NCBI RefSeq assembly: GCF_030689745.1
Contig: NZ_JAUYGL010000024.1
Coordinates: forward strand, 1-59,264
Origin: Devosia sp.
GTDB taxonomy: Bacteria; Pseudomonadota; Alphaproteobacteria; Rhizobiales; Devosiaceae
DNA: 59,264 bases
Direction: 5' to 3'
Below, piece by piece: positions 11,740 through 57,409 of the stretch. Each line of letters starts with the position of its first letter. Within the stretch, counting starts at the first letter, position 1. A program made the position numbers and the translations under genes. The notes under the pieces are model-generated. The model worked only from the letters and a program-made list of their open reading frames with translations, had not been told where the DNA came from and made no database searches.

Positions 11740-12116
11740 CAGGTCGATCTCCTTGGCCGGTGCCAACGGGCAGCGTCCCGGCGTATTGATGGCTGGCAAA
11801 CAGGTGCCACTATATAGTCGGGTGACTGGCTGACACGACAAGGGGGCCAAATTGCGCCACAGGCCATTTTGTCAGCAACCAAAGCGGGCAAAGCACCATT
11901 TCGGTCCGGTTTTCGGCAGGCCAAAACAGGTGTGGCTGATTTCGGCGACGTTGACAAGACAGGGGCCCGCTCTTACATCTCACGCGCTTTTCCGTCGCTC
12001 GGCGGGGATACATGAATTCAAAGCCGGAAAGGCTTTCTCATCGCGCTGACGATGGCCTGGCGGAGCCTGTCCGCTTCCCCAACCGCGCCCCGATGAGTCA
12101 TCGAAGGACCTGACAT
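11740..12116. other. Divergent promoter region of ppiC and secA
   Basis: About 377 bp. On the plus strand TTGACA at 11951 with TACATC 17 bp later is the best promoter candidate for secA, though the -10 is poor. A small hairpin AAAGCC-GGAA-AGGCTTT at about 12021-12037 lies in the predicted secA leader. No gene is apparent. Confidence 0.4.
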
Positions 12117-56167: not shown

Positions 56168-57409
56168 CTACTCCGCCGCGTCCCGCTTGCCGGCGCCGAA
56201 CTTCTTTTCGATATAGTCCGCCACCATCAGCTTGAACTGCTCGGCCACATCGGCGCCGCGCAATGTGGCGACCTTCTGGCCATCGACAAACACCGGCGCG
56301 GCCGGGGTTTCGCCGGTGCCGGGCAGGGAAATGCCGATATTGGCGTGCTTGCTCTCACCCGGCCCGTTGACGATGCAGCCCATCACCGCCACCGACAGCG
56401 TTTCGACGCCCGGATAGCGTTCTTTCCATTCCGGCATCGAGCGCGACAGATGTTCCTCGATGTCCTGGGCCAGCGTCTGGAACGTCGTCGAGGTGGTGCG
56501 GCCACAGCCGGGGCACGCCGCCACTGTCGGCACGAACTGGCGGAAGCCCATGGTCTGCAGCAATTCGCGCGCCACCTTGACCTCGGTGGTGCGATCACCA
56601 CCCGGCTCGGGGGTCAGCGAAATGCGGATGGTGTCGCCAATGCCCTGCTGCAGCAAGATGCCCAGCGCCGCCGATGACGCCACCACGCCCTTGGTGCCCA
56701 TGCCCGCCTCGGTGAGGCCGAGATGCAGCGCATAATCGCAGCGCGCCGCCAGATCCTGATAGACCGCGATCAGATGCTGCACGTCCGATACCTTGGTGGA
56801 GAGGATGATCTTGTCGCGCCCCAAACCGATCTCCTCGGCCCGTTGCGCGCTCAGCAGCGCCGACTGGATGATCGCCTCGCGCTGCACTGCAGCGGCGCCC
56901 AGCGGACTGCCGGCAGCAGCGTTTTCATCCATCAGTCGTGTCAGCAGCTCCTCGTCGAGCGACCCCCAGTTCACCCCGATGCGCACCGGCTTGTCATATT
57001 TCAGCGCCAGCTCGATCAGCGTCGAAAACTGCGTGTCGCGCTTGGCCTTGAAGCCGACATTGCCCGGATTGATGCGTTATTTGGCCAGCGCCTCGGCGCA
57101 GGCCGGATGATCGGTGAGCAGCTTGTGGCCAATATAGTGGAAATCCCCCACCAGCGGCACGTCATAGCCCAGCACGGCCAGGCGATCGCGGATGATCGGC
57201 ACGGCGGCCGCCGCCTCGTCGCGATCCACCGTGATACGGACGATTTCCGAGCCGGCCCGCGCCAGCGCCATCACCTGGCGTACTGTCGCCTCGATATCGG
57301 CGGTATCGGTATTGGTCATCGATTGTACGACAATGGGGGCGCCGCCGCCCACCATTACGCCGCCGACATTCACACCCACCGCCTGCCTGCGCATCGCCGG
57401 ACCAGCCAT
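56168..57409 (-). pseudogene. ispG: ispG (4-hydroxy-3-methylbut-2-enyl diphosphate synthase) with in-frame TAA
   Basis: A 413-codon gene from ATG 57409 (GAGGTG upstream) to the stop at 56168, broken by one TAA at 57077-57079. Both halves are in the same frame. Before it the protein reads [10 protein letters not shown] and after it [14 protein letters not shown]; the family has Tyr there (KYRINPGN), so one base at 57077 changes TAC or TAT to TAA. Downstream holds [13 protein letters not shown] and [16 protein letters not shown], the iron-sulfur ligands. IspG is a normally essential MEP-pathway enzyme. The interruption may be a sequencing error or a real mutation. Confidence 0.92.

Follow-up and report, generated by a model that had tools for sequence, protein, structure and literature searches.

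A lone in-frame TAA in an otherwise intact and conserved ispG of a draft Devosia genome is probably a consensus error

Introduction

A base or indel error in a draft assembly can disrupt an essential gene and leave what looks like a pseudogene. In a literature search on premature stops in essential genes as sequencing errors of draft genomes, we found no bacterial case by title.

The IspG/GcpE family (HMBPP synthase; PF04551) has been described in some detail. In E. coli, IspG holds its 4Fe-4S cluster with Cys270, Cys273, Cys305, and Glu312, and its gene is described as essential, the deletion strain having been built with a mevalonate operon for viability; in T. thermophilus IspG, Arg110 is among the substrate-binding residues (PMC11218510). 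For another enzyme of the MEP pathway, DXR-I, a substitute is known in DXR-II, which within the alphaproteobacteria comes mainly from Rhizobiales (PMC3847144); the main text of that paper has no occurrence of Devosia.

Here, we analyze an ispG gene with an internal stop codon in a window of 59264 bases, the whole of contig C181 in a draft genome of 4,252,303 bases and 241 contigs (G000) with a listed completeness of 99.98% and contamination of 1.88%.

Results

In the assembly, ispG is not one continuous frame, as codon 111 is TAA (Table 1). An earlier note on this DNA had described a lone in-frame TAA in an otherwise undamaged gene, standing at a Tyr of the family and one base from a Tyr codon, and both points are borne out by our analysis. 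The minus-strand translation gives a frame of 413 codons that reads EALAK, stop, RINPGN at the site, with no frameshift and no second lesion in ispG from 56168 to 57409. At the position equivalent to codon 111, all 109 of the other IspG loci compared have Tyr and none has a stop; these loci comprise the 29 best-scoring from relatives' genomes and 80 named loci, with some genomes possibly in both.

The PF04551 profile matches the gene along its whole length above the curated cut-off (E 9.4e-113; 376.9 bits; positions 4 to 341 of 343) and spans the stop, with one TAA inside the match, and the NCBIfam ispG models match parts of the gene on both sides. From the translation and its alignment to the structures 4s38 and 2y0f, the part downstream of the stop contains the remaining barrel and the 4Fe-4S domain. 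The three Cys and one Glu that serve as cluster ligands are present in this part, in the motifs CPGC and GCIVNGPGE, within the region aligned to 4s38, and their spacing agrees with that of E. coli Cys270, Cys273, Cys305, and Glu312 (PMC11218510).

Table 1. Positions of ispG and its parts in the window
Feature	Position	Strand	Description	Basis
ispG (gcpE)	56168..57409	minus	413 codons and normal terminal stop, one internal stop	translation, PF04551, NCBIfam
Internal TAA, codon 111	57077..57079	minus	Tyr in relatives	
N-terminal 110 codons	57080..57409	minus	first part of the TIM barrel	NCBIfam NF001540 profile positions 10-109
Downstream part	56168..57076	minus	302 codons and stop, begins RINPGN	PDB 4s38 and 2y0f residues 110-403
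First candidate restart, GTG, codon 142	56984..56986	minus	272-aa ORF	

We found ispG in 59 of 61 genomes (G000 and 60 relatives), and among the 60 matches listed the window's gene alone has a stop inside. The other imperfections in this set are a gene in two pieces in G026 and a partial gene in G044. Within the genus, ispG was matched in 36 of 37 genomes, G000 included, the genome without a match being 62% complete, and two of the 36 genes are interrupted, the window's by the stop and that of G026 by a frameshift. The 25 residues on each side of the stop are identical to those of the G021 and G024 orthologues (the values for G027 are 1.00 and 0.92), so the ispG frame across the stop is not due to chance. 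The nearest named loci are from Devosia, with 95% identity to the ispG of Devosia sp. FKR38 over the 302 downstream residues, in a set of genomes where we saw no second one of the same species and which may exclude records very near the window. On this basis, the genome probably belongs to Devosia or near it.

Two other genomes in this set drew our attention. In G026, a single contig of 91% listed completeness, a frameshift near residue 153 divides the ispG gene (L180; G026:C1:2206501-2208500). An assembly of this kind would suit indel errors, and our guess is that this frameshift is likewise an artefact. In G042, a genome of the same order (2.3 Mb, listed as 96% complete), DXR-I is present and an ispG match is absent, which may be an assembly gap.

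With codon 111 omitted, dN/dS was 0.064 to 0.135 between the window's ispG and six close orthologues and 0.047 to 0.130 among the six orthologues (15 pairs). Full-length gapless matches were available for 33 of 110 loci, including the window's own, and two of the eight orthologues chosen (L018 and L025) were dropped for a one-position gap. The ratio for the window's gene is higher than that for L014 with all five partners that they have in common (L061, L063, L024, L015, and L062), and a three-point split gives branches with dN of 0.023 and dS of 0.222 for the window's gene, 0.012 and 0.324 for L014, and 0.021 and 0.261 for L061. This excess in dN/dS is small, with values far below 1, and is not decay. 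Besides the stop, the window's gene has private changes at residues 281 and 295, at columns where the other 25 of the 26 close sequences do not vary. With the stop included, the counts of private changes in these 26 sequences are 4, 3, 3, 3, 2, and then 1 or 0, and the window's gene has 3; in a wider set of 104 distinct sequences, it has 2. This count is among the higher ones and is not exceptional. Overall, ispG is under strong purifying selection, and this constraint, together with the lack of a second lesion, means that the stop is either fresh or unreal. An old pseudogene was considered and rejected, as there is no further lesion, dN/dS remains in the range given above, and constraint is not relaxed.

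The earlier note had also raised rescue by a second ispG or by the mevalonate pathway. A profile search of G000 returned one PF04551 match, which speaks against the former, and HMG-CoA reductase, the sole mevalonate enzyme searched, was not found in G000 by a search that matched 5 of 14 control genomes, which speaks against the latter. The MEP enzymes searched besides IspG were IspF, IspH, DXR-I, and DRL. G000 has one match each for ispH, ispF, and DRL_cat (PF21135), none with a stop inside where matched, and the DRL_cat match (L181; G000:C82:6121-6612) lies in an open frame of 499 codons without a stop. DXR-I was not found in G000. When 41 genomes were searched, DXR-I was matched in 0 and DRL_cat in all of the 25 genus genomes, G000 included, while the 16 other genomes, from the same order, had DXR-I in 15 and DRL in 8. 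The genus matches are putative DRL, as PF21135 may also match related oxidoreductases (DLO families; PMC3847144). The presence of DRL across the genus would explain the missing DXR-I, and decay of the MEP pathway, a candidate that the missing DXR-I had suggested, was rejected on this genus-wide pattern. With one ispG, no HMG-CoA reductase found, and stop-free IspF, IspH, and DRL, the cell therefore appears dependent on ispG. The MEP pathway is probably its only isoprenoid route, with this ispG as the sole copy.

Among 305 domain matches listed for three large families in the assembly (ABC, 150, from the 150 of 258 candidates that were scored; BPD, 111; MFS, 44), 302 are free of stops and three were flagged with one. 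Two of these, in MFS, are matches that overrun the end of an intact gene. The third, in BPD (L169; G000:C220:1-20), is a TAG in a permease gene cut by a contig edge, at the fifth codon from that edge, and is perhaps an edge artefact. The assembly thus looks clean where sampled, which lowers the prior for an error at the ispG site and argues slightly against one. The ispG stop lies 2.2 kb from the end of its contig and not at the edge. In 54 supported window genes, counted after dropping matches below 60% identity or containing a stop, 2.56% of single substitutions create a stop. With assumed error rates and an assumed coding share of 0.88, the expected number of nonsense errors genome-wide is about 10 at 1e-4 per base, about 1 at 1e-5, and 0.1 at 1e-6. 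One error of this kind is thus nothing unusual, and this stop was chosen by a scan seeking oddities of its kind.

We also compared the window with the open reading frames of three relatives and found 260 distinct stop sites within the matches. Filtering by codon-position GC leaves 5 of the 260, all antisense to open reading frames with matches in relatives; the control is weak, because the filter lets through just 559 of 1177 positions within genes and loses the ispG site as well. Stops are held by 7 of 57 kept matches for G021, 9 of 60 for G024, and 11 of 50 for G027, with ispG in each set, and from their coordinates we judged the others to be antisense or upstream-extended frames. Among the matches listed, and by this weak control, no other convincing stop falls within a sense gene of the window. 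A candidate frameshift at 11800 was rejected, since we judged the foldase-like gene there (named by eye) to be intact, with a spurious extension upstream in one relative.

We considered two ways in which the gene could still give a working enzyme with the TAA in place. A functional IspG split into two fragments, the second starting from the GTG at 56986, has in its favor the 272-codon open frame that begins there. The earlier note had placed a restart ATG at 56986; the codon is actually GTG (56986-56984, codon 142), the first in-frame restart after the stop. Residues 111 to 141 are in neither fragment, and these include R112, directly after the stop, which the alignment pairs with Arg110 of the T. 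thermophilus enzyme. A split IspG is therefore implausible, and we regard it as having almost no chance of being correct. Our analysis supports the doubt cast on reinitiation in the earlier note, now for the GTG, and sharpens the reason to the loss of residues 111 to 141. Suppression or programmed readthrough of the TAA could yield full-length IspG and would fit the intact, conserved frame downstream of the stop, yet several results make it very unlikely. All 47 tRNA genes found in G000 with the Rfam tRNA model were read with ARAGORN, and none of these has a stop anticodon (TTA, CTA, or TCA), which leaves the suppressor tRNA suggested in the earlier note without a candidate among them. This list is incomplete and the assembly has gaps, since tRNA-Ile(GAT) and tRNA-Ala(TGC) are missing from the 47, and our guess is that their absence reflects unassembled rRNA operons. 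TAA terminates 7 of the 54 supported window genes and is therefore in use as a stop. In addition, a fold of 171 bases of RNA at the stop is no better than shuffles (z -0.25), and the stop is common to no other locus examined (0 of 109). There is a similarly slim chance that the stop is genuine and is tolerated through efficient TAA readthrough, or through a suppressor, or a source of isoprenoids, that has gone unrecognised and lies beyond the assembled contigs.

Discussion

The stop is present in the assembled sequence; apart from it, the gene is intact and conserved, and rescue was not found. We consider it likely that the TAA is a single-base consensus error in this draft assembly, and we infer that the living organism itself lacks the stop. 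In this case, the consensus would have miscalled one base of Tyr codon 111, giving TAA at 57077-57079, and the organism would very probably keep an ordinary, intact, single-copy ispG that supplies the HMBPP synthase of the MEP pathway. The error is favored by the apparent dependence of the cell on ispG, the strong constraint on the gene, the single lesion, and the lack of a stop-reading tRNA among the 47 found. Set against it are the clean look of the assembly where sampled, the position of the site away from the contig edge, and a dN/dS on the high side. The options in the earlier note were an error, a rescued nonsense allele, or readthrough; the error now leads, and our searches support neither rescue nor readthrough. 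Nothing points to a new mechanism.

After a consensus error, we place second a genuine nonsense allele that arose very recently in the sequenced cells, which we think unlikely. It could belong to a lineage that is in the minority or dying out, to a mixed population if the genome is a MAG, or to a mutant sustained by leaky readthrough or feeding. One substitution in an otherwise intact gene would suffice, a young mutation and an error look the same in sequence, and the slightly raised number of amino-acid changes in the window's gene is no counterargument. Against such an allele are the one ispG match, the failure to find HMG-CoA reductase, and the naming of ispG as essential in E. coli (PMC11218510). 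It is more doubtful still, to the point of being highly improbable, that the strain can do without ispG because of another route or an unrelated synthase. The missing DXR-I was at first suggestive of pathway decay, but all 25 genus genomes searched lack DXR-I and have DRL, and the same single PF04551 match and unmatched HMG-CoA reductase (one mevalonate enzyme searched) argue against dispensability. If the stop is the consensus error that we favor, it matters only as a warning against inferring gene loss from a solitary stop when the gene is essential and the genome a draft. If it were real, it would be striking, because a second ispG, HMG-CoA reductase, and a suppressor tRNA were all not found.

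Compared with the IspG/GcpE proteins described previously (PF04551; 4s38 and 2y0f), the window's gene belongs to the same family over its whole length, its downstream part aligns with 4s38 without gaps over 294 residues, and it differs by one internal TAA in the assembled sequence. DXR-II/DRL (PF21135), matched in this genus, whose searched genomes gave no DXR-I, is not part of the lesion. The window's ispG is probably also comparable to assembly-error pseudogenes: as in these, it is a normally essential gene, found in a single copy, with a lone lesion, strong constraint, and no rescue found.
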